Assembly: GCF_000230715.2 (NCBI RefSeq) | Contig: NC_019792.1 | Location: 2,108,001 to 2,172,000 of the forward strand | Direction: 5' to 3' | DNA: 64,000 bases | Source of the DNA: Natronobacterium gregoryi SP2 | Lineage (GTDB): Archaea > Halobacteriota > Halobacteria > Halobacteriales > Natrialbaceae | Part shown: positions 737 through 12,643 of the stretch, piece after piece | Layout: each line of letters begins with the position of its first letter | Position numbering within the stretch: the stretch's first letter is position 1 | Notes under the pieces: model-generated | The model's database searches: none | What the model was told of the DNA's origin: nothing | The model's input: only the letters and a program-made list of their open reading frames with translations | Made by a program: the position numbers and the translations under genes

Positions 737-1177
737 ATGCGACTCGAGCTTCGCGTCTGTCAGCACTGTCTCGACGGCGACCACGAGGCAGGAAAGCAAA
801 AGTCGGCGCTGCTACAGGACATGGTCGCTTGCGCCGAGCGCGTCGAAGAGCACAAGGACGTCCTCGACCTCGAGGAGGTCCACATTCGAAAGGTACGCGA
901 CGACGAGAAAGGGAAGCCGGCGGCGCTGCCGGTCGTCGCGGCGACGATTCAGAACGATCAGGTAGTCTTGAACGACACGCAACTCGTCGCCGAAGGGCAG
1001 GACGGGACGATGCTCCTGTACGCGAATCCCGACGACATTCTGACGGTGCTTGCCGGTAACGTCGACGAGATCGACAAGGTCGTCCCTGGTGATGCGACCG
1101 TCGACCTCTCGCCGGCTGGTGCCGAGATAATCGCAGATGCCGATCTCGGTGCGGACGGCCCACAGTCCGGCGAGTAG
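737..1177 (+). CDS. Conserved acidic protein of unknown function with CxxC
   Basis: A 146-residue acidic protein I cannot assign to a family. It starts MRLELRVCQHCLDGDHEAGK; the CQHC pair and nearby His could bind a metal. The middle (HIRKVRDDEKGKPAALPVV) is followed by a beta-rich segment ending near residue 110 and a loose acidic tail. Codon use and GC-rich third positions match neighbouring genes, so it is probably real. It may be co-transcribed with the MBL-fold gene upstream; the region downstream is noncoding and repeat-rich. Confidence 0.6.
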   Translation: MRLELRVCQHCLDGDHEAGKQKSALLQDMVACAERVEEHKDVLDLEEVHIRKVRDDEKGKPAALPVVAATIQNDQVVLNDTQLVAEGQDGTMLLYANPDDILTVLAGNVDEIDKVVPGDATVDLSPAGAEIIADADLGADGPQSGE

Positions 1178-1983: not shown

Positions 1984-2084
1984 CCGCTGGATTATGAGTG
2001 GTAGAGCCCTTGGAGAGGTAGTTGCAAGTATCAAATGGATGGAACAGTTCCGGAAACGAAGGCGAATTCGATCAAAAGAAACCT

Positions 2085-3275
2085 ATGACACAGCCTGATT
2101 GCAGTACTGACACGACAAAAGGGGGACAAGGTGGAGCGTCACGTCGGAACTTCCTTCAGCTCGCGGCCGGTGCAGCCGCCGGGACAGTTATTACGTCTTA
2201 CACGGCGGAAATCGGCTCGGCACTCGGACAGGCGATCGACGGTGATCTCGAGGTCGTCTGGCTGCAGGGCCAGGCCTGCACCGGGTGTACGATATCGACG
2301 CTGCAGGGGCAGTATCCGTCTCTGGAAGGGGTATTGAAGGATTTCCGCGTCGAAGTGACCTTTCATCCGACTCTGATGCCCGAAGCGGGCGAAGACGCGA
2401 TGGACTCGATGAGTATGGACCCCGACGTGTTGATCGTCGAGGGGTCCGTGCCGGTCGATATGCCGTCCGCGGCGACGGTTGGGGGACGAGCGATCTACGA
2501 CTGGGTTCAGGAACTCGCACCGGAATCCGATTACGTGATCGGCGTCGGTAACTGTGCTGCCTTCGGCGGTTGGCCGGCGGCCGAGAACAAGAAGGATCTC
2601 TACGGCCTGGGCGAGAACGTCACGGGGGCACGGGGCCTTCAGTTCGAACAGCGACAAGAGCGTGGCGTTCTCGGCCCCGACTTCGAGTCGGGGGCTGGCT
2701 TACCGGTCATCAACCTCGGCGGGTGCCCGATTCACCCAGACTACCTCCTGTTGACGTTGGCGACGGTGCTAAACGGTCACACGCCGGAACTCGACCGTTA
2801 CAACCGGCCGAAACCGTTCTACGAGCCACTCGTCCACGACAACTGTCAGCTCCGAGGGTACTTCGATCGCGGTGAGTTTGCCGAGAAACCTGGTGACGAA
2901 GGCTGTCTTCTCAAGGTCGGTTGTGCTGGTCCCTACACGAACTGTGACGACCAGCAACGGCTCTGGAACGACGGCACGAGCGTCTGCCTCGACGTCGGCG
3001 CAGCGTGCATCGGATGTATGGAGCCGGGCTTCTGGGATCGGTTCACGCCGTTTAACGAAGAGGTCGAACGACAGTCAGTCGTCGGCCCGATCACGGCAGA
3101 GCACGCTGGCTGGGCTGGCGTCGCCGCTGCTGGTGCCGGGATCGGTGCCCACGTCGCACGGAAAGCAACCGGGTACGGTCACTTCACGAAAGACGACGCG
3201 CCGGAGGAGATGAAAGAGGAAGCGACGGCCGAGATGAAAGAGGAAGCGACGGCCGAGCAAGACGATTCGAACTAA
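2085..3275 (+). CDS. hyaA: [NiFe] hydrogenase small subunit, Tat-exported
   Basis: Electron-transfer subunit of a membrane-bound uptake hydrogenase, 396 aa from the ATG at 2085; a TTG at 2022 is possible but adds an unlikely leader. It has a twin-arginine signal (SRRNFLQLAAG, residues 19-29). Cluster ligands are the proximal CTGC (65-68), GNCAAFGG, GGCPIHP, then a Cys-rich C-terminal half (VHDNC, GYFDRGEF, CAGPYTNC, CIGCMEPGFWD). A hydrophobic helix near the end (GWAGVAAAGAGIGAHVAR) would anchor it in the membrane. The proximal motif is CTGC, not the CTCC of O2-tolerant enzymes. The tail carries a perfect 24-bp tandem duplication. It lies directly before the large subunit. Confidence 0.95.
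   Translation: MTQPDCSTDTTKGGQGGASRRNFLQLAAGAAAGTVITSYTAEIGSALGQAIDGDLEVVWLQGQACTGCTISTLQGQYPSLEGVLKDFRVEVTFHPTLMPEAGEDAMDSMSMDPDVLIVEGSVPVDMPSAATVGGRAIYDWVQELAPESDYVIGVGNCAAFGGWPAAENKKDLYGLGENVTGARGLQFEQRQERGVLGPDFESGAGLPVINLGGCPIHPDYLLLTLATVLNGHTPELDRYNRPKPFYEPLVHDNCQLRGYFDRGEFAEKPGDEGCLLKVGCAGPYTNCDDQQRLWNDGTSVCLDVGAACIGCMEPGFWDRFTPFNEEVERQSVVGPITAEHAGWAGVAAAGAGIGAHVARKATGYGHFTKDDAPEEMKEEATAEMKEEATAEQDDSN
3207..3254 (+). repeat. Perfect 24-bp tandem duplication in the small-subunit tail
   Basis: Two identical 24-bp units (3207-3230 and 3231-3254) encode EMKEEATA twice, in the charged tail after the membrane helix. In frame and probably tolerated because the tail is flexible. Confidence 0.9.
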
Positions 3276-3290
3276 CGGAGGCTAAGATCA

Positions 3291-4859
3291 ATGGTGGAAG
3301 TTACTATCGACCCGACGACACGTATCGAAGGACACCACGGAACAGAACTGGAAATCGAGAACGGCGAAGTCGTCAACGCCAAAAGCCAGATGAAGATGTT
3401 CCGGGGTGCCGAAATAATCACGCTCGGGCGACCGCCCTACGACGCGCCCATGCTTACGGGGAAAGTCTGTGGGGTGTGTTTCACCTGTCACCGCCTCGCC
3501 TCGAGCAAGGCCGTAGAGAACGCTGCCCAGGACGCAGGCGTCTTCGAGGGACCGCCGCGGAACGCGGTCTTGCTTCGAAACGCCCTGGAAGGGATCTTCT
3601 ACCTGTGGAATCACGCGATCCACCTCTATGCGCTCGTGGGACCAGACTACAGCGACGCCGTTGCGGACACGGGTCTCGATCGGCTCGACCCGATCGAAGG
3701 CGAGGGTTATCAGGCGGCACTCGACCAGCAGCGGAAACTGCTCAAGGCGTTCGCCGAGTTCGGTGGTCGCGCACCCCACCCGCTGACGTACGTTCCTGGC
3801 GGGATGGCGGGCCAGCCCGATCCATCGACGGTCGAAAGCGTCAAATCGCGAGTCGCCGAGGTCAGTGAGTGGATCGGTCCAACCGAAGCCGCGCCGGAGG
3901 TTCTCGAGCGATACCTGGCGGCCGACGAGCCCGGTGACGTCGAGGTCGATCCCGACCTCGGCGAGGGACTGCACGACCTCGTCGGACTCCTCGTCGCGGC
4001 AGCCCAAGCGGGCACTGCCGAGCACGGTGTCGGGCCGAACCGGTATTACTCCAACGGCGTCTTCGATCACGCGGACGGGGACGGACTGTTCCTGGACCGC
4101 GGGATCTATCGCAACGGGCTGGTCGAGTCGAAGACGAGAGACGAGATCATCGACGCGATCAGCGAAGACACCGCATACTCCTGGTACACGAACGATTCGG
4201 GTGGCGATCCTGCGAAAGCGAAGCCGCCCGAGCCGGCTCCCGACAAAGACGACGCCTACTCGTGGGGGACGGCACCCAGATGGAACGGTCAGACGATGGA
4301 AACCGGCCCGCTCGCTCGGCTGGTCATCGACGACCGCGACCCGTTCGACCTGCGGGCCGACCTCGGTGGCGGCGCTGCCGAGAGCAACACGCTGAACCGC
4401 CTCATCGCTCGAGCACAGGAGATCCTGCTCGTCCGCGACGAGGTGCTGAACTGGCTAGACGCCCTCGACTTCGACGAACCGTTCGTCCACGAGTGGACCG
4501 ACGACTTCACTGGACAGGGCGTGGGTCTCTGGGAGCCATCGCGCGGGGCACTGTCCCATTGGACCAGCGTCGACAGCGGTGAGGTCGAGCGGTACCAGAT
4601 CATCACGCCGACGCTGTGGAATCTTGGGCCCCGCGACGCGGAGGGCCAACCGAGTATCCTGGAAGAAGGACTGGTTGGTATGGAAGTCGACGATGTCGAG
4701 AACCCGCTCAACGTGATGCGAACGATTCGCTCGTTCGATCCGTGTCTGGCCTGTGCGGTCCACGTCCAGAGCCCGGACGCGGAGTACGAGACCGTCCTCG
4801 AGCCGGCACGGCCCGGTGACAAACTCGGGGCCGAAACGGACGGCAGCCGAGGTGAGTAA
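3291..4859 (+). CDS. hyaB: [NiFe] hydrogenase large (catalytic) subunit
   Basis: Catalytic subunit carrying the Ni-Fe(CN)2CO site, 522 aa. The N-terminal motif is TTRIEGHHGTELEIE. The first Ni-binding pair lies in GKVCGVCFTCHR (consensus RxCGxCxxxH) and the second in FDPCLACAVHV (consensus DPCxxCxxH). About 30 residues follow that His (QSPDAEYETVLEP onward), the C-terminal extension that the maturation protease removes after Ni insertion. A ribosome-binding sequence, CGGAGGC, sits 8 nt before the ATG. It should be exported with the small subunit by Tat, since it has no signal of its own. Confidence 0.95.
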   Translation: MVEVTIDPTTRIEGHHGTELEIENGEVVNAKSQMKMFRGAEIITLGRPPYDAPMLTGKVCGVCFTCHRLASSKAVENAAQDAGVFEGPPRNAVLLRNALEGIFYLWNHAIHLYALVGPDYSDAVADTGLDRLDPIEGEGYQAALDQQRKLLKAFAEFGGRAPHPLTYVPGGMAGQPDPSTVESVKSRVAEVSEWIGPTEAAPEVLERYLAADEPGDVEVDPDLGEGLHDLVGLLVAAAQAGTAEHGVGPNRYYSNGVFDHADGDGLFLDRGIYRNGLVESKTRDEIIDAISEDTAYSWYTNDSGGDPAKAKPPEPAPDKDDAYSWGTAPRWNGQTMETGPLARLVIDDRDPFDLRADLGGGAAESNTLNRLIARAQEILLVRDEVLNWLDALDFDEPFVHEWTDDFTGQGVGLWEPSRGALSHWTSVDSGEVERYQIITPTLWNLGPRDAEGQPSILEEGLVGMEVDDVENPLNVMRTIRSFDPCLACAVHVQSPDAEYETVLEPARPGDKLGAETDGSRGE

Positions 4860-4861
4860 CG

Positions 4862-5812
4862 ATGACCGACCGCTCGATAAACGACGCTGACCGCCCCCCG
4901 ACAGACGAGGGATCGTCGGACCGGGTGCAGACGGACGGCGGCACTCGGGAAGTCGACCACGGCGGTATCATCGACATCGAACAAATACCGGTCGCCGGGA
5001 AATTCGTCGCGTCGATCCGGACCGAAATCGCCACCCGCTATGCGGGCTATCTGACTCTCAACAAGGAGGACAAGGAGACGATCCACCGCTGGGGGACCGG
5101 GTCGATCATCTGTCACTGGGTGATGGTGCTGTGTATGTTCATTGCCCTCGTGACCGGCGTCCAGTTCTGGACTGGCTGGTACGGTCCGCTGAACATCGGC
5201 ATCTGGGACGGCTATCAGGTCGCGTTCCAGCTCCACATGTGGGCGGGCGTGATACTCGCTGTCATCGCGCTCGTGATCTTCCCGTACTATCACAAGTTCG
5301 TCGACGGCCACGAGTTGCTGGTCTCTCTCGATCAGATCAAAGAGGAGATCATCATCGCGGTCTCGTTCGTCGGGTTGACGGATTACATTCCCGGCTACAA
5401 GAAAGCACGGCGGACGTACAACGAAGACCACGAGGAGTGGGTGGGCTACCATCCGATGCAGACGGTCTTCTGGTATGTCACGTGGTTTTTCGTGTTGGCG
5501 CTGACGGTGACTGGCTTCGCGCTGTGGAACGGCATCGCGACCGATCCAGCGTGGTGGATCGCTGCAATCGGCTTCATGGAAGGCTGGGTCACTTACGAGA
5601 CGATGTTGCGACTGCACCTGCTCGCGACGTTCTGGGTGATCGCAGCGGTCTCGATCCACGCGTACTTCCCGCTGATGCCGAGCAACCTCGACATGACGAA
5701 GTCGATGTTCACCGGCACGCTCGAGGGTTGGGTCGTCGACGACGAGACGAAACCGGAACCGGACGCTGAATCGACGGTCGAACGAACTCAAGACGAAACC
5801 AGCGATGACTGA
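4862..5812 (+). CDS. hyaC: Hydrogenase b-type cytochrome membrane subunit
   Basis: 316 aa. A hydrophilic acidic N-terminus of about 75 residues is followed by a cytochrome b561 / Ni,Fe-hydrogenase cytochrome b-like membrane domain with four main helices: around 88-112 (GSIICHWVMVLCMFIALVTG), 126-150 (LHMWAGVILAVIALVIF), 205-225 and 245-275. His residues at CHW, QLHMW, RLHLL and IHAYF are candidate haem ligands. It starts 3 nt after the large-subunit stop and overlaps the protease gene by 8 nt, so translation is probably coupled. It should pass electrons from the extracytoplasmic hydrogenase to menaquinone. Confidence 0.9.
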   Translation: MTDRSINDADRPPTDEGSSDRVQTDGGTREVDHGGIIDIEQIPVAGKFVASIRTEIATRYAGYLTLNKEDKETIHRWGTGSIICHWVMVLCMFIALVTGVQFWTGWYGPLNIGIWDGYQVAFQLHMWAGVILAVIALVIFPYYHKFVDGHELLVSLDQIKEEIIIAVSFVGLTDYIPGYKKARRTYNEDHEEWVGYHPMQTVFWYVTWFFVLALTVTGFALWNGIATDPAWWIAAIGFMEGWVTYETMLRLHLLATFWVIAAVSIHAYFPLMPSNLDMTKSMFTGTLEGWVVDDETKPEPDAESTVERTQDETSDD

Positions 5813-6323
5813 AACCGCTTCCCCGTCACCAGAGATCGCGGTCGTCGGCGTCGGGAACGAGATCATGGCCGACGACGGTATCGGGCCACGGATGATCGCA
5901 GCACTCGAGTCACAGCCTGCGGTCGCGACGGAGGCGATCCGCCTGTACGACGCGGGGACGACCGCGTTTCTCGCGCTCGAGGCGATGAGTGGCTGCGATC
6001 GAGCGATCGTCGTCGACGCGATCGAGACTGGGTCCGAACCGGGGACAGTCCAGGAGTATCGGTACGTCGACGGCGCGTTCGACGGGGAAGCACCGGACAT
6101 GACGATGCACGACGTCTCGTTTACCGAGGCGCTCGGGTACACAGACGGGACGTACGATTTGCCCGACGAGATGCTGGTCGTCGGTATCGAGCCGAAGCGA
6201 CTCGAGCCGGGTACTGAGCTGAGCGAACCGGTCGAGAACGCCATTCCAGCGGCTACGGATGTGATACTCGACTACGCCGCAGCGGCGGCCGATCGATCCA
6301 AGCACGTGGTAACGACCGAGTAG
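5805..6323 (+). CDS. hyaD: Hydrogenase maturation endopeptidase
   Basis: 172 aa, the HybD/HycI family that trims the large-subunit C-terminus once nickel is in place. Motifs: GVGNEIMADDGIGP near the N-terminus (Glu of GNE), VVDAIE (Asp), TMHDVS (His), and VVGIEPKRLEPGTELS. The Glu, Asp and His correspond to the three nickel-sensing ligands of the family. Its ATGACTGA start overlaps the cytochrome stop. One protease next to one large subunit with a matching C-terminal extension is the expected arrangement. Confidence 0.93.
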   Translation: MTETASPSPEIAVVGVGNEIMADDGIGPRMIAALESQPAVATEAIRLYDAGTTAFLALEAMSGCDRAIVVDAIETGSEPGTVQEYRYVDGAFDGEAPDMTMHDVSFTEALGYTDGTYDLPDEMLVVGIEPKRLEPGTELSEPVENAIPAATDVILDYAAAAADRSKHVVTTE

Positions 6324-6354: not shown

Positions 6355-6552
6355 ATGAGTTCAAAGTGGTATTGTCGCGACTGTGAGACACGTATCGAGA
6401 GCGACGAGATCCAGGCACACGAGGACGACGGCCACGATGTCAAAGGTGTCGTTCGTCCGGACCGGCTGCTCGGAAACGATCCGTGGAACGTAGGTGTCCA
6501 GCATCGATCGGCAGACGACGAATCGACGGACGACGAAGAGGTGTCCGGCTGA
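6355..6552 (+). CDS. Small zinc-finger-like protein in the hydrogenase operon
   Basis: 65 aa with CRDC near residue 7 and HEDDGHD about 12 residues later, a C2H2-like metal site, followed by an acidic disordered tail (SADDESTDDEEVSG). The stop overlaps the hypC start by 1 nt, so it is translated within the operon. I do not recognise it as any standard hydrogenase accessory factor. A role in maturation, metal delivery or operon regulation is inferred from position only. Confidence 0.75.
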   Translation: MSSKWYCRDCETRIESDEIQAHEDDGHDVKGVVRPDRLLGNDPWNVGVQHRSADDESTDDEEVSG

Positions 6553-6917
6553 TGTGTCTCGGTATTCCCGGCGAGATCCTCGAGATTAACGGGGACGAAG
6601 CCCGAGCGGAGTTCTGGAACGTCGAGAAGACCGTCCGACTGGACATCGTCGGTGATACCGTCGAGGAGGGCGATTACGTCCTCAATCACGCCGGCTTTGC
6701 GATCCGGAAGATTCCCGAGTCGGAGGTCGAGGAGACGCTCGAGATCTACGAGTCGTTCCTCGAGGGCGACGAAGACGAGGCGCTCGAGGAGCTCGGTGCC
6801 GAAGACGCCGTCCTCGAGTTCGGCGACCGGCCGACAGCGGTTGACGGTGAGAGACAACCAGTGACGGCCGATCCTGGCGATCGGCGGTCTCGAGAGGGAA
6901 GCGACGATGAGCAGTGA
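6552..6917 (+). CDS. hypC: Hydrogenase maturation chaperone HypC
   Basis: 121 aa starting MCLGIPGEILEI; Cys2 is the essential residue that binds the Fe(CN)2CO precursor with HypD and delivers it to the large subunit. The first 75 residues are the HypC/HupF beta-barrel (VGDYVLNHAGFAI-type core visible as EGDYVLNHAGFAIRKI). The remaining 45 are an acidic extension not found in short bacterial HypC. The start is fixed by the N-terminal MCLG; a longer frame upstream overlaps the zinc-finger gene and is rejected. It overlaps hypD by 11 nt. Confidence 0.95.
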   Translation: MCLGIPGEILEINGDEARAEFWNVEKTVRLDIVGDTVEEGDYVLNHAGFAIRKIPESEVEETLEIYESFLEGDEDEALEELGAEDAVLEFGDRPTAVDGERQPVTADPGDRRSREGSDDEQ

Positions 6918-8013
6918 GACGGACCTCCAGTTTCGGGACCCGGACGCAGCCCACGAGCTTGCAGACCGACTGGCGGCGCTGATGGACGACATCGGAGAGT
7001 CGGTCAGTCTGATGCACGTCTGTGGCTCTCACGAGCAGGCGATCGCCAAATTCGGTCTGCGAAGCATGCTTCCCGACGGTCTTTCGATCCGGATGGGGCC
7101 GGGGTGTCCGGTCTGTGTGACGAACATGCCGGAAGTCGACGACGCCGTTGCCCTCGCCGAACAGGGGGCAATCGTCGCGACGTACGGTGATATGTATCGC
7201 GTCCCTGGAACGGAGGGGAGTCTCGCGGACGCCAGTGCAGCGGGGGCCGATGTCGAAATCGTCTATTCGGCGAGCGAGGCAGTCGAACTCGCCGCCGACA
7301 ATCCTGGCCGCGAGGTCGTCTTCTTTGCGACTGGCTTCGAGACGACCGCGGCTCCGACGGCTGCCATCCTCGCGGGCGGTCCGCCCAAGAACTTCTCGAT
7401 ACTCTCCGCGCACAAGTACGTTCCGCCGGCCATGGAGGTCGTCGCCGAACTGCCCGACACCGACATCGACGGCTTTCTGGCTGCCGGTCACGCCGCGACG
7501 ATCACCGGCTATGGACTGTTCGAAGAGTTCGTCGACCAGTACGAGACGCCGGTCGTCGTCGGTGGCTTCGAGCCACTCGACGTACTGCTCGGCGTCGAGC
7601 GACTGCTCGAGAATATCCGCGACGGCGAGGCTGGCCTCGAGAATGCCTATCCACGCTGTGTCTCGCGCGAAGGTAACACCGCGGCGCTGGAGACGATGTG
7701 GGATGTCTTCGAGACGACGTCGGGCGAGTGGCGCGGGATCGCGGAGATCCCGGACGCGAATCTGGTGCTCCGCGAGGAGTACGCCGAGTACGACGCTCGC
7801 ACGCGATTCGACGTCGATCCAGCCGTGGGGGATTCGGATCCGTTGACGGAGCAGTGTCTCTGTGGCGATATTATGGCGGGCACGGCGGACCCGGACGATT
7901 GCGATCTCTTCGGCGAGGAGTGTACGCCGGGCAACCCCGTCGGCGCGTGTATGGTAAGCAGCGAAGGCCCCTGCAAAATCTGGCAGGAGTACGGTGGAAA
8001 ACCGGATCTCTAA
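6907..8013 (+). CDS. hypD: Hydrogenase maturation factor HypD (4Fe-4S)
   Basis: 368 aa, the scaffold on which HypC, HypE and HypF products assemble the Fe(CN)2CO unit. Signature motifs: LMHVCGSHEQAI, RMGPGCPVCVTN, ATYGDMYRVPG, FFATGFETTAAPTAA, and C-terminal Cys residues (CLCGDIMAG, CDLFGEECTPGNPVGACMVSSEG) that hold the [4Fe-4S] cluster. Length matches the family. It is followed 1 nt later by hypE. Confidence 0.96.
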   Translation: MSSETDLQFRDPDAAHELADRLAALMDDIGESVSLMHVCGSHEQAIAKFGLRSMLPDGLSIRMGPGCPVCVTNMPEVDDAVALAEQGAIVATYGDMYRVPGTEGSLADASAAGADVEIVYSASEAVELAADNPGREVVFFATGFETTAAPTAAILAGGPPKNFSILSAHKYVPPAMEVVAELPDTDIDGFLAAGHAATITGYGLFEEFVDQYETPVVVGGFEPLDVLLGVERLLENIRDGEAGLENAYPRCVSREGNTAALETMWDVFETTSGEWRGIAEIPDANLVLREEYAEYDARTRFDVDPAVGDSDPLTEQCLCGDIMAGTADPDDCDLFGEECTPGNPVGACMVSSEGPCKIWQEYGGKPDL

Positions 8014-8014
8014 C

Positions 8015-9070
8015 ATGAACGACAGCGACGACTCGAACGACGAGGTAGTGACGCTTGCCCACGGTGCGGGCGCGGGATCGATGCGCGCGCTGATCGACGA
8101 CCTGGCGGTCTCGCGGTTCGCAGACGAAGACGAGCCAGCCGCCGACGAAGTCGGTCTCGCGGCCCTCGACGACGGGTCCGTCCATCCGCTCGAGAGCGGG
8201 GACGGATCGGTCGTTCACACGACCGACAGCCACGTCGTCAGCCCGCCGGTCTTTCCGGGGGGTGACGTTGGCAGGCTCGCGGTCGCTGGTACGGTCAACG
8301 ACCTGGCGGTCATGGGTGCGACCGATCCGCTTGGCCTCACCTGTTCGCTGATCGTCCAGGAGGGATACCCGATGTCGAAACTCGAGTCGGTCTTCGAGTC
8401 GATGCAGACGGCGTGTGAGGAGGCCGGCGTCCGGATCACCACTGGCGATACGAAAGTGATGCGAAGCGACGAGGTCGACGGGCCGGTGATCAATACGGCG
8501 GGCGTCGGCGTCGTCCCGCCTGGCGGTGCGGTTACCGACGCCGGGCTCTCGCCCGGTGATGCGGTCATCGTCAGCGGCACAGTCGGGGACCACGGCATCG
8601 CATTGCTCTCCGAACGCGAGGGATTCGGGTTCGGCGGCGACCTCGAGAGCGACGTCGCACCAGTCAACGATCTCGTCCGGGCGGCGATGGACGCCGGCTC
8701 CGTGACTGCGATGAAAGATCCGACACGTGGCGGGCTCGCGACCACGCTAAACGAGATCGCAGAGAAAAGTGGCGTCGGTCTCGAACTCGACGAGCAGTCG
8801 ATCCCGATCGACGACGCGATCGCAAGCGCTGGCGAAGTACTCGGTATCGACCCGCTTTCGGTCGCCAACGAAGGCAAAGCCGTACTTGGCGTCGACGCCG
8901 ACGACGCCGACGCCGTCCTCGAGGCCATCCGAGCGCACCCGACCGGCTCGGACGCGGCGATCGTCGGTCACGCGACCGCAGATCACACTGGCCGGGTCGT
9001 CCTCGACACTGGCTTCGGGAGACGGTACCTGAGCGAACCGGAGGGCGAAGTCCTTCCACGAATCTGTTGA
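8015..9070 (+). CDS. hypE: Hydrogenase maturation factor HypE (cyanide synthesis)
   Basis: 351 aa from the ATG at 8015; a GTG at 7994 inside hypD is less likely. AIR-synthase-like ATP-binding fold: LAHGAGAG at the N-terminus, GGDVGRLAVAGTVNDLAVMGA, TGDTKVM, KDPTRGGLATTLNE. It ends in PRIC; the C-terminal Cys receives the carbamoyl group from HypF and is dehydrated to thiocyanate. The full-length tail shows an intact, functional gene. Confidence 0.96.
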   Translation: MNDSDDSNDEVVTLAHGAGAGSMRALIDDLAVSRFADEDEPAADEVGLAALDDGSVHPLESGDGSVVHTTDSHVVSPPVFPGGDVGRLAVAGTVNDLAVMGATDPLGLTCSLIVQEGYPMSKLESVFESMQTACEEAGVRITTGDTKVMRSDEVDGPVINTAGVGVVPPGGAVTDAGLSPGDAVIVSGTVGDHGIALLSEREGFGFGGDLESDVAPVNDLVRAAMDAGSVTAMKDPTRGGLATTLNEIAEKSGVGLELDEQSIPIDDAIASAGEVLGIDPLSVANEGKAVLGVDADDADAVLEAIRAHPTGSDAAIVGHATADHTGRVVLDTGFGRRYLSEPEGEVLPRIC

Positions 9071-9074
9071 CACC

Positions 9075-9461
9075 ATGCACGAACTGAGCATCGCGTCCCG
9101 ACTCGTCGATCGTGCACTGTCGGCTGCCGACGAACACGACGCCGACGACGTCGAGGCGTTGGCGATCGACGTCGGTCGCGCAGCGCACGTCAATCCCGAC
9201 CAGTTACAGTTCTGCCTCGAGACTGCCGTCGACGAAACGATCGCTGCGGATGCGACGATCGACATCGAAACCGTGTCGCCACGTGCACGTTGTGACTGTG
9301 GCTGGGATGGCGAGCCCGACCGTCTCGAGGAGACGATCGCGTATGCACCGGACGTTCGCTGTCCCGACTGTGGCAAGCGGGCGGAACTCGTCGCTGGTCG
9401 CGAGTGTCGACTACGAAGTATCGAGATTCCGGACGCGAATGCAACCGAGGCGAGCAGTTGA
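9075..9461 (+). CDS. hypA: Hydrogenase nickel-insertion protein HypA
   Basis: 128 aa. MHELSIA gives the N-terminal nickel site (His2, Glu3). The zinc domain uses CDCGW and CPDCGK. The C-terminal tail is slightly longer than bacterial HypA. It starts 4 nt after hypE and precedes hypB after a 117-bp gap that holds a 61-bp direct repeat. It should hand nickel to the large subunit with HypB. Confidence 0.95.
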   Translation: MHELSIASRLVDRALSAADEHDADDVEALAIDVGRAAHVNPDQLQFCLETAVDETIAADATIDIETVSPRARCDCGWDGEPDRLEETIAYAPDVRCPDCGKRAELVAGRECRLRSIEIPDANATEASS

Positions 9462-9462
9462 T

Positions 9463-9572
9463 CGGCGAGTAGACCGATCGGTGCCGAGAGAACGGAGTGC
9501 TAACGAATACACTCAATACTGACCGGCGAGTAGACCGACTGTTATCGAGATAATCGAACGCTAACGATACTA
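9463..9572 (+). repeat. Two ~50-bp direct repeats, 61-bp period, between hypA and hypB
   Basis: Unit 1 (from 9463) and unit 2 (from 9524) share CGGCGAGTAGACCGA, then CGAGA, then GCTAACGA, at an identical 61-bp offset. The copies have diverged in between. This may be a regulatory duplication or an internal promoter region for hypBF. Confidence 0.7.
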
Positions 9573-9578
9573 CTTACC

Positions 9579-10340
9579 ATGTACAACCGAACGACACATC
9601 CCCTGACTCGAGCCCTGAATCGCCTGTTCGACGTCGGTCCGATCCGACTCCACCGGTTTGGCCACGACCACGACCACGAGGAGTCGACGACCGACATCGA
9701 GGCCGACGTCCTCGCCGCCGTTCGCGAGCGTGCTGGCGAGGTCCACGAACGTCTGGCTCACGACCACGGCGTCTACGGCGTCGAGTTCGCCGGCAGCACC
9801 GGCGGCGGCAAGACGCTGTTGATCGAACGGCTGATCGAACGCGCCCCGGAAGACGAACAGCTCGGCGTCGTCGTCGGCGACGTCGCCGGCGAAGACGACG
9901 CGAAACGGCTGCGCGACCACGGCGTCGCGGTCGAGAACGTAAACACCGGTAAGGAGTGTCACCTGGACCCGACGCTCGTCGACGAGGCGATCGAGTCGTT
10001 CGACCTCGAGACCCTCGACACGCTCTACCTCGAGAACGTCGGGAACATGGTCTGTCCCGCGGACTTTCCGCTCGGGGCGACCCGTCGCGTGCTAGTGGTG
10101 AGCACCACTGAAGGCGACGACGTCGTCCGCAAACACCCGATGCTCGTCCAGTCGGCGGACGTCGTCGTCATCAACAAGGTCGACATCGCAGACGCGGTCG
10201 GAACGGACGTCGACGTGATCCGGTCGGACGTCGAGGACGTCGCTCCGGGAACATCGGTCGTCGAGACGAACGCCCAGAGCGGCGAGGGCATCGCCGCGCT
10301 CGAGGCCGAACTCGAGGGTGAACACGACCACCACCAGTAG
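9579..10340 (+). CDS. hypB: Hydrogenase nickel-incorporation GTPase HypB
   Basis: 253 aa, SIMIBI-class GTPase. Walker A FAGSTGGGKTLLIERLIE, then VGDVAGEDDAKRL, GKECHLD, LENVGNMVCPADF, INKVDIAD (guanine-specificity loop). A His-rich patch near residue 28 (GHDHDHEE) and a terminal HDHHQ could store or bind nickel. GTP hydrolysis drives nickel release into the large subunit together with HypA. It is separated from hypF by only 5 nt. Confidence 0.95.
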   Translation: MYNRTTHPLTRALNRLFDVGPIRLHRFGHDHDHEESTTDIEADVLAAVRERAGEVHERLAHDHGVYGVEFAGSTGGGKTLLIERLIERAPEDEQLGVVVGDVAGEDDAKRLRDHGVAVENVNTGKECHLDPTLVDEAIESFDLETLDTLYLENVGNMVCPADFPLGATRRVLVVSTTEGDDVVRKHPMLVQSADVVVINKVDIADAVGTDVDVIRSDVEDVAPGTSVVETNAQSGEGIAALEAELEGEHDHHQ

Positions 10341-10345
10341 ACGCT

Positions 10346-12643
10346 ATGACTACCGAATCCGCGGATCGACGACGAGTCGAGGTGACCGTTACGGGTGTCG
10401 TCCAGGCCGTCGGTTTCCGGCCGTTCGTCTACCGACGGGCGACGACCCACGATCTCACCGGAACAGTCCGAAACACCGGCGACGCCGGCGTCGAGATCGA
10501 ACTCGAGGGGCGATCCGACGACGTCGAGTCGTTCCTGTCCGATCTCCGGGAGCGACCGCCGCCGCTTGCAGTCGTCGAGTCGGTGACCGTCGAGGAAGCC
10601 GATCCCGTCGGCGAGAGCGAGAGCGAGTTCGTCATCGAACCCTCGACGGACGGCGACGGCGGTTCGGGGACGATCCCGCCCGACACTGGGATCTGTGAGA
10701 CGTGTCTCGAGGACATCCGCGATCCCGACTCGCGGTACCACCGGTACTGGGCGACTGCCTGTGTCGACTGTGGGCCGCGATACACGGTAATCGAGTCGTT
10801 ACCCTACGATCGGCCGCGGACGACGATGGACGAGTTCCCGATGTGTACGGCCTGTCGCGAGGAGTACGAAGATCCCATGGATCGGCGCTATCACGCCCAG
10901 ACGACCGCGTGTCCGGAGTGTGGGCCGTCGCTGTCGTTGCTCGACGACGACCGTGGGGAACTCGCGACGGACGAGGAGGCAATCGCCGCCACGACCGATC
11001 GACTCGCCAACGGCGAACTCGTCGCGATCAGGGGGATCGGTGGGACCCATCTGGCCTGTCTGGCGACCGACGAGACGGCAATCGAACGGCTCCGAGACCG
11101 GACCGGTCGCCCGGCGAAACCGTTCGCACTCATGGCCTCGTCGCTTGACGACGTCGAGTCGTTTGCCGCCGTCGACGACCGCGAACAGTCGTTGCTTACC
11201 GACGTGCGTCGGCCGATCGTCGTGCTCGAGACCGAACGCGACGACGCGTGGCTCGAGGCCGTCGCTCCGGGGCTGCACACGGTCGGCGTGATGCTTCCCT
11301 ACGCTGGCTTGCATCACCTGCTTTTCGACGAACTCGACGATCCGCTCGTGATGACCAGTGCGAATCTGCCGGGACAGCCGATGGCGACGACCGTCGACGC
11401 CATCTACGAGCAACTCGAGGGCGTGATCGACGCGGCACTGGTCCACGACCGCGAGATCACCGCCCGGTGTGACGACAGCGTCGTCCGGGTCGTCGACGAC
11501 GACCGGCGGTTTCTCAGGCGGTCTCGAGGCTGGGTTCCACGTCCGCTCCCGCGTCCCGACTCCGGTCCGGAAGTACTGGCGCTCGGGGCCGAATTCGACA
11601 ACGTCGTCGCGCTCGCCCGTGACGCCGACGTGGTGCCGTCCCAGCATCTCGGCGATGTCGACGGGCCGGCAACCGAGGCGTTCCTCCGGGAGACGACCGA
11701 CCACCTCACGGAACTGTTCGGCGTCGAACCCTCCGTCGTCGCCTGTGACCGCCACCCCGGCTTTCGCACCACGGAACTGGCAGCGACCGTCGCCGACGAC
11801 CTCGAGGTCGACGCTCCGGTTCGCGTCCAGCACCACCACGCCCACGCAGCCGGACTTCTCGCGGAACACGACCGCGACCAGGCGGTCGTCGTCGTCGCCG
11901 ACGGAACGGGGTACGGATCCGACGGGACGATCTGGGGTGGCGAAGTGCTCTCTGTGACGCCCGCGTCGTTCGACCGTGTCGGCGGGCTCGATACTTTCCA
12001 GTTGCCCGGCGGCGAGTCGGCAATTCGTCGCCCGGCCCGCATTCTCGCGAGTCTCCTCCAAGACGACGAACGGATCGACGAGTTACTCGTCGACCGGACG
12101 CCCCTCGACGAGGACGCTGCCCGGACGGTCAGAGAGAGCGTCGCTGCCGACGTGAACGCGCCGGAAACGACCAGCGCCGGTCGGTTTCTCGACGCGAGCA
12201 GCGCACTGCTCGACGTCTGTTCACACCGGCGCTACCAGGGAGAGCCTGCACTCCAACTCGAGGCGGCCGCGGCCGACGCCGACCCGGTCGACATCGACGT
12301 ACCCTACACCGAGCGAGACGGTAGGCAGGTCGTCGACGTTGCTGCTCTCGTGCAGGCGATCGACGACATGCGTGACACGCACTCGAGACACCGTCTCGCG
12401 GCAACCGCACAGGAGACGCTGGCGCGTGGGCTCGGAACGATCGCGGCCCGGGCGGCGACCGACCGCGGGATCGACGCCGTCGGGTTTACTGGTGGAGTCG
12501 CCTACAACGAGGCTATCTCTCGGACGATCCGGGCGACAGTCGAGTCACACGACCTCGACTATCTCGCCCCCGACCGCGTCCCGCCCGGCGACGCCGGGAT
12601 CGCGTACGGGCAGACGGTCGTCGCGGCGAACCGCGTCGAGTGA
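10346..12643 (+). CDS. hypF: Carbamoyltransferase HypF
   Basis: 765 aa, makes carbamoyl-AMP from carbamoyl phosphate and transfers it to the HypE C-terminal Cys. Domains in order: acylphosphatase (GVVQAVGFRPFVYRRA, 8-95), two zinc fingers (CETCLEDI...CVDCGPR and CTACREEY...CPECGPS, about 110-190), YrdC/Sua5 domain (GGTHLACLATD, RPAKPFALM, about 200-380), and a Kae1-like domain (VQHHHAHAAGLLAEH, VADGTGYGSDGTIWGGE, GFTGGVAYN). Full length for the family. It ends the hydrogenase cluster; a palindromic repeat (P2) follows and may terminate transcription. Confidence 0.96.
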   Translation: MTTESADRRRVEVTVTGVVQAVGFRPFVYRRATTHDLTGTVRNTGDAGVEIELEGRSDDVESFLSDLRERPPPLAVVESVTVEEADPVGESESEFVIEPSTDGDGGSGTIPPDTGICETCLEDIRDPDSRYHRYWATACVDCGPRYTVIESLPYDRPRTTMDEFPMCTACREEYEDPMDRRYHAQTTACPECGPSLSLLDDDRGELATDEEAIAATTDRLANGELVAIRGIGGTHLACLATDETAIERLRDRTGRPAKPFALMASSLDDVESFAAVDDREQSLLTDVRRPIVVLETERDDAWLEAVAPGLHTVGVMLPYAGLHHLLFDELDDPLVMTSANLPGQPMATTVDAIYEQLEGVIDAALVHDREITARCDDSVVRVVDDDRRFLRRSRGWVPRPLPRPDSGPEVLALGAEFDNVVALARDADVVPSQHLGDVDGPATEAFLRETTDHLTELFGVEPSVVACDRHPGFRTTELAATVADDLEVDAPVRVQHHHAHAAGLLAEHDRDQAVVVVADGTGYGSDGTIWGGEVLSVTPASFDRVGGLDTFQLPGGESAIRRPARILASLLQDDERIDELLVDRTPLDEDAARTVRESVAADVNAPETTSAGRFLDASSALLDVCSHRRYQGEPALQLEAAAADADPVDIDVPYTERDGRQVVDVAALVQAIDDMRDTHSRHRLAATAQETLARGLGTIAARAATDRGIDAVGFTGGVAYNEAISRTIRATVESHDLDYLAPDRVPPGDAGIAYGQTVVAANRVE

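Follow-up and report, generated by a model that had tools for sequence, protein, structure and literature searches.

The window (the whole analysed stretch of 64,000 nucleotides from Natronobacterium gregoryi SP2, whose genome is a single contig of 3,788,356 bases) was found to contain a [NiFe] hydrogenase operon in the order HupS, HupL, cytochrome b, protease, finger protein, hypC, hypD, hypE, hypA, hypB and hypF. The following features were assigned.

2022–3275, + strand: hydrogenase small subunit HupS/HydA, with the motif SRRNFL and a C-terminal cluster domain (PF14720, PF01058)
3291–4859, + strand: hydrogenase large subunit HupL/HydB (PF00374)
4862–5812, + strand: cytochrome b membrane subunit (PF01292, E 1.8e-12)
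5805–6323, + strand: hydrogenase maturation protease, HycI/HupD type (PF01750, E 1.4e-21; TIGR00072 above cut-off)
6355–6552, + strand: C2H2 microprotein gene, 65 aa (from ORF reading, alignment, predicted structure and dN/dS); its parts are a predicted strand-strand-helix-strand finger (about residues 2–34), a conserved RPxRLLxxDP motif (34–43) and a variable acidic tail
6552–6917, + strand: hypC (PF01455 and TIGR00074 above cut-off)
6907–12643, + strand: hypD-hypF block
6907–8013, 7994–9070 and 9075–9461, + strand: hypD, hypE and hypA (family models of Pfam and NCBIfam)
9579–10340 and 10346–12643, + strand: hypB and hypF (translation and order matching the annotated plasmid pAArc1-02, without a family search)

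The C-terminal cluster domain PF14720 spans residues 267–344 of the window HupS, whose true start codon may be one further downstream than the TTG at 2022. The window HupL carries the motif DPCLACAVH followed by a C-terminal extension of 31 aa and is the expected substrate of the protease. In the accessible part of PMC6176080, the N. gregoryi hydrogenase is described as strikingly similar and the strain as strongly sulfidogenic with H2; these haloarchaeal hydrogenases are placed in group 1a there, and hydD and hypA-F are named alongside hydABC. Upstream of the hydrogenase, window positions 737–1177 encode a 146-aa protein starting MRLELRVCQHCLDGDH, for which neither Pfam nor the other hydrogenase loci compared gave a match.

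The finger reading frame starts with ATG at 6355 and comprises 65 codons, with its TGA at 6550–6552; 31 nt separate it from the protease stop, and the TGA shares 1 nt with the ATG of hypC (6552). The frame itself and the Pfam and NCBIfam assignments of its neighbours confirm the earlier note, which had described a 65-aa CxxC...H...H protein between the maturation protease and hypC with a 1-nt overlap. In pairwise comparison of the finger genes, pS exceeded pN in 299 of 300 pairs, and dN/dS was 0.00–0.27 in 14 chosen pairs. The frame is real and kept by purifying selection, far above chance. Plasmid pAArc1-02 carries a homologue under the label 'hypothetical protein'. The window's own genome gave one further match, located within a frame of 336 aa (E 0.113; 38% across about 50 residues), which was read as chance. 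Fusion of the finger with the protease or hypC was rejected, an ATG or GTG lying at or within 2 codons of the finger start in 24 loci besides the window; where the match sits inside a longer open frame, as at some loci, this start codon led us to read the finger as a separate gene.

The finger protein and its predicted fold

The alignment of the finger protein comprised 24 members, a close copy (L068) having been omitted from the 25. The finger follows the pattern C7-x2-C10-x11-H22-x4-H27, with the four ligand residues invariant in 24 of 24 rows; M1, W5, I14, E23, V29, P35, R37, L38, L39 and P43 are likewise invariant. AlphaFold2 predicted strands at residues 2–7 and 12–14, a helix at 16–24 and a strand at 29–34, with block means of pLDDT of 84, 91 and 93 (residues 1–30), followed by 71, 55, 45 and 59, and a pTM of 0.46. 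With C-x2-C-x11-H-x4-H conserved and a strand-strand-helix core predicted, the protein reads as a single C2H2 finger, for which zinc binding is predicted from the ligand pattern. According to the accessible part of PMC11241148, AlphaFold2 predicts zinc-finger folds whatever the ligands, and several predicted Haloferax finger microproteins bind no zinc, so that the window site may bind no metal either.

Searching the window protein against Pfam and NCBIfam, no model reached its cut-off and none was a Hup, Hya or Hyp model; the 24 members matched no hydrogenase family in Pfam. This bears out the statement of the earlier note that, by its motifs, the protein is not a known Hup/Hya/Hyp factor. Sub-threshold matches of the window protein were to zf_UBZ (Pfam, E 0.0037) and to a deacylase model (NCBIfam, E 0.0055), and assignments to zf_UBZ, a Zn-ribbon or a deacylase were rejected, all scores being under the cut-off. 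PF18439 zf_UBZ is a partly similar finger, with sub-threshold matches in 12 of the 24 members, but the best member reached E 0.00059 and the window protein 17.3 bits against a gathering cut-off of 25.6 bits. The best hit of a PDB sequence search (E 0.0031, an acetophenone carboxylase subunit over 12 residues) was read as chance. Foldseek gave no fold match with E up to 0.001, and the best VIA fold match of the finger model was 5vmd (Z 2.4, 41 residues, rmsd 3.0), which gave no clear answer on a UBR-box or other solved zinc-finger fold. Judging from the predicted model, no solved structure appears to be a convincing relative, which bears nothing on the novelty of the fold.

Rubredoxin-type HupI/HoxR proteins hold a four-cysteine iron site; this identity was rejected for the finger protein, whose site consists of two Cys and two His, the same in all 24 aligned members. 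Other operons have hydrogenase-specific accessory genes close to the protease (HyaE, HybE, HupG-K, HoxO-V). The finger gene is like them in being a small accessory gene next to the protease and belonging to one kind of hydrogenase; it differs by the missing family-model match, the C2H2 finger, the missing tie to the Tat motif and, in these searches, the occurrence in Halobacteria only. The zinc-finger microproteins of Haloferax volcanii (PMC11241148; see also PMC6562870 and PMC10716476) are equally haloarchaeal, shorter than 70 aa and endowed with one predicted finger. In contrast to their two C(P)XCG motifs, the window protein has one CxxC plus two His, and it further differs by its fixed hydrogenase context and RPxRLLxxDP. 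Membership of the C(P)XCG class was rejected on the basis of the single CxxC, with Glu next to it in the window protein.

Distribution and gene neighbourhood

In a sample of 391 Halobacteria genomes, with thresholds of E ≤ 1e-10 for HupL-like matches and E ≤ 0.001 for the finger profile, HupL-like matches were present in 41 genomes. The window HupL clade (58–100% identity) accounted for 27 genomes with 30 loci, and the other 14 genomes held a 35% relative (G128) or weaker matches (13 genomes); family models were applied to G128 and G219 among these 14, and among the rest there may be proteins other than hydrogenases. The finger profile matched 35 of the 391 genomes, 25 of them strongly (E 7e-31 to 3e-24) and, after a gap, 10 weakly (E 8e-10 to 1.4e-4; 8 of the 10 at E 1e-6 or better). 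Co-occurrence with hydrogenases, raised in the earlier note, was evident from the strong homologues, which were found in 25 of the 27 genomes with window-clade HupL versus 0 of the other 364 (Fisher p 1.9e-37, a value that ignores relatedness); a wide occurrence in genomes without hydrogenase was thus not seen for them. A contig scan of named genomes with one short pattern around PxRLL matched 24 stretches, of which 11 were confirmed; all 11 are haloarchaeal and have HupL and protease genes beside the match, 8 repeating genomes already counted and 3 being new.

A phylum-wide sample of 392 genomes, in which Halobacteria are numerous, gave no strong finger match outside Halobacteria, and partial matches there in 5 genomes (E 4.9e-4 to 0.0078) were taken as chance. 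The closest non-haloarchaeal HupL relatives, from a further sample, were 42–46% identical. Ten of their hydrogenase loci, from 9 of the 27 genomes with such a HupL, revealed no convincing finger gene; two of the ten have the same HupS-HupL-CytB-protease order with no finger ORF behind the protease. A pattern scan for short ORFs in these ten loci and L091 gave 3 matches without the conserved residues, which were taken as chance. In these searches, the finger family did not extend beyond Halobacteria or beyond one [NiFe] hydrogenase clade. The archaeal-specific maturation or regulatory component proposed in the earlier note is thereby narrowed in its range; maturation is favoured, and nothing was found to point to regulation.

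The protease was the recognised gene just upstream of the finger gene in 25 of 25 genomes with strong homologues, the matched pieces lying no more than 197 nt apart, and hypC was the next recognised gene in 21 of the 25 loci. In four genomes (G068, G272, G177 and G257), hypC-hypB lie elsewhere without a finger gene, and the finger gene remains with HupS-HupL-CytB-protease; its linkage is to the hydrogenase and the protease gene, independent of the place of the hyp genes. A general Hyp factor is disfavoured, as a strong homologue was absent both from these four remote hyp clusters and from all 14 genomes in which HypD is accompanied by other HupL-like matches only; five of the latter (G050, G078, G139, G144 and G268) carry the weak g47 relative. 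HupL carries a C-terminal extension of 20–37 aa after DPCxxCxxH in 25 of 25 cases, and copies of HupL without a finger gene are extended as well, so that the extension does not discriminate.

The finger gene accompanies different HupL lineages, as in the window and in G320. The window HupL (3291–4859) and the HupL of G320 (L079, same genus) are 60% identical and belong to different lineages, each with its own finger gene. Given these different lineages in two species of one genus, the whole hydrogenase module was likely transferred.

Two of the 27 window-clade genomes, G318 and G088, both of genus g47, have no close finger gene. Their loci consist of HupS-HupL-protease without a cytochrome b match, and their HupS lacks the C-terminal cluster domain, having an unrelated tail instead; no piece matching the domain was found in another frame. 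The HupS genes of this type lie at L070 3999–4994 and L072 ~3924–4991, RHGRSGR repeats being present in the L072 tail. Since six finger-bearing loci (L081, L083, L085, L088, L089 and L090) are also without a cytochrome b match, its absence in G318 and G088 is not special. A weak finger relative occurs elsewhere in G318, G088 and five other g47 genomes; these are 7 of the 10 weak-match genomes, all with a HypD or HupL match, the remaining three (G274, G160 and G015) having no HupL match. The short C2H2 relatives of g47 (L092, L094, L096) and of g71 (L093, L097) share WYCxDC and the same or nearly the same C2H2 spacing, but lack RPxRLLxxDP and have no match to hydrogenase-operon proteins in the 10–11 kb around them. 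The g47 relatives may take over the finger role. Mapping finger presence onto the HupL tree takes 3 changes, compatible with a single gain and two losses; the finger may also have been gained after the G318/G088 branch.

Three genomes of genus g54 have a second HupSL copy (L084, L086 and L087) with no protease or finger match in 16.5 kb, where the first locus of each has both; these copies are probably matured in trans. Cytochrome b and hyp matches were likewise absent from the 16.5 kb.

A Tat-type RR motif is present in HupS at 19 of 25 finger loci, and the finger gene is kept at the six loci where HupS lacks it (L081, L083, L085, L088, L089 and L090), showing its presence to be independent of the Tat motif. 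HupS proteins without the RR motif, including the second copies L084, L086 and L087, have a strongly hydrophobic C-terminal segment (19-residue mean 1.9–2.7), which suggests a membrane-tied, non-exported hydrogenase variant; a comparison of the genes near these systems gave nothing interpretable as an explanation. In one subclade (L076, L077, L078, L079 and L082), the HupS C-termini contain 2–4 Cys in the last 40 residues in a CxC-like arrangement, possibly an extra metal site.

Co-variation with the protease and proposed role

Distance matrices were compared for nine families in 24 genomes, using matched pieces rather than full proteins; a genome without hypE-hypB was dropped, and cytochrome b and HypF were omitted. 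With the mean of the remaining families as control variable, finger and protease showed a partial correlation of 0.56, with 0 of 2000 permutations as high. The coefficient was 0.575 without the Tat-less loci, 0.546–0.584 in the jackknife and 0.61 once near relatives had been thinned, leaving 19 genomes. The pair ranked third of 36, behind HupS-HupL (0.73) and HypD-HypE (0.65), two established pairs of physically interacting proteins, and ahead of HypC-HypE (0.42). For finger and HypB, the value was 0.24 (37 of 2000 permutations as high), and for HupS (−0.11), HupL (0.06), HypC, HypD, HypE and HypA it ranged from −0.15 to 0.06. The ranking is an imperfect control, as protease-HypB (0.39), no known pair, came fifth, the known partners HypA-HypB ninth, and the enzyme/substrate pair protease-HupL outside the top 12. 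The finger-protease signal is suggestive only; block inheritance or replacement of neighbouring genes could also yield such co-variation, although HypC, which adjoins the finger gene in most loci, gave no such signal.

We propose, with a probability of roughly one half, that the finger protein is a haloarchaeal hydrogenase-specific accessory protein of late large-subunit maturation, with the protease as its likeliest partner. In such a mechanism, the C2H2 finger would coordinate a single zinc ion and form a rigid scaffold, and partner binding would fall to RPxRLLxxDP, a conserved and probably flexible motif; the partner would most likely be the maturation protease encoded just upstream. As an adaptor or a checkpoint, the finger protein may help the protease to recognise the HupL precursor, or may time the removal of the C-terminal extension. 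The physical contact with the protease and the step of action are what we infer. The co-occurrence (25/27 versus 0/364), the upstream protease (25/25), the distance signal and the finger gene staying with the structural genes and the protease when the hyp genes are remote were counted for this protease-linked role. Counted against it were G318 and G088, which have HupL and protease with only a weak relative elsewhere, and the fact that, to our knowledge, proteases of the HycI/HupD family elsewhere work without such a partner. A description of such a partner was not found in the literature searched, including the accessible part of a 2025 review.

The main rival is a direct chaperone of the large- or small-subunit precursor that, for example, keeps the subunits apart or aids iron-sulfur assembly. 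This is possible, though we hold it to be rather unlikely: the tight linkage to one hydrogenase clade would suit it, and the HupS without C-terminal cluster domain in both finger-less HupL genomes would fit a small-subunit role, but the partial correlations with HupS and HupL are near zero against 0.56 for the protease, and the second HupSL copies in genus g54 have no finger gene nearby, though the first locus of each genome has one. HyaE and HybE are proposed Tat-signal chaperones of the small subunit, with genes behind the protease in E. coli. A comparable Tat-signal chaperone would agree with the place of the finger gene after the protease and with the RR motif in 19 of 25 HupS; it is disfavoured, and we regard it as quite improbable, as the finger gene persists at 6 of the 25 loci despite an RR-less, hydrophobic-tailed HupS and a distance signal with HupS is missing.

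Single C2H2 fingers can bind DNA, and AFV1p06 of an archaeal virus is weakly similar in fold (2lvh; Z 2.0, 34 residues, rmsd 2.7); both points might be taken to indicate an operon-specific nucleic-acid-binding regulator. However, Z 2.0 is at noise level, the gene sits within the operon, and residues 1–45 carry a net charge between 0 and −9 across the 24 aligned sequences (haloarchaeal proteins being acidic anyway), so that such a regulator appears unlikely. If the finger protein were a permanent additional subunit of the finished enzyme, linkage of its gene to the structural genes and not to the hyp cluster would fit; we consider this very improbable, and the least favoured of these readings, given that no signal peptide is apparent, whereas 19 of 25 HupS carry a Tat-type motif, and that no distance signal with HupS or HupL was obtained.

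A description of the finger protein was not found in the literature searched, including the accessible parts of PMC6176080, PMC5437934, PMC11241148 and PMC12134894, nor was a gene-by-gene study of how haloarchaeal hydrogenases are built in saturated salt. We judge the finger family to be a new, narrowly distributed accessory gene family, not a new kind of system. As a 65-aa protein that tracks one hydrogenase clade and its protease, it is a small, testable candidate for a maturation step, and if these operons were moved into a model haloarchaeon, the finger gene would have to go along. Haloarchaea have many unassigned zinc-finger microproteins, and for one of them a likely functional context is thereby provided.
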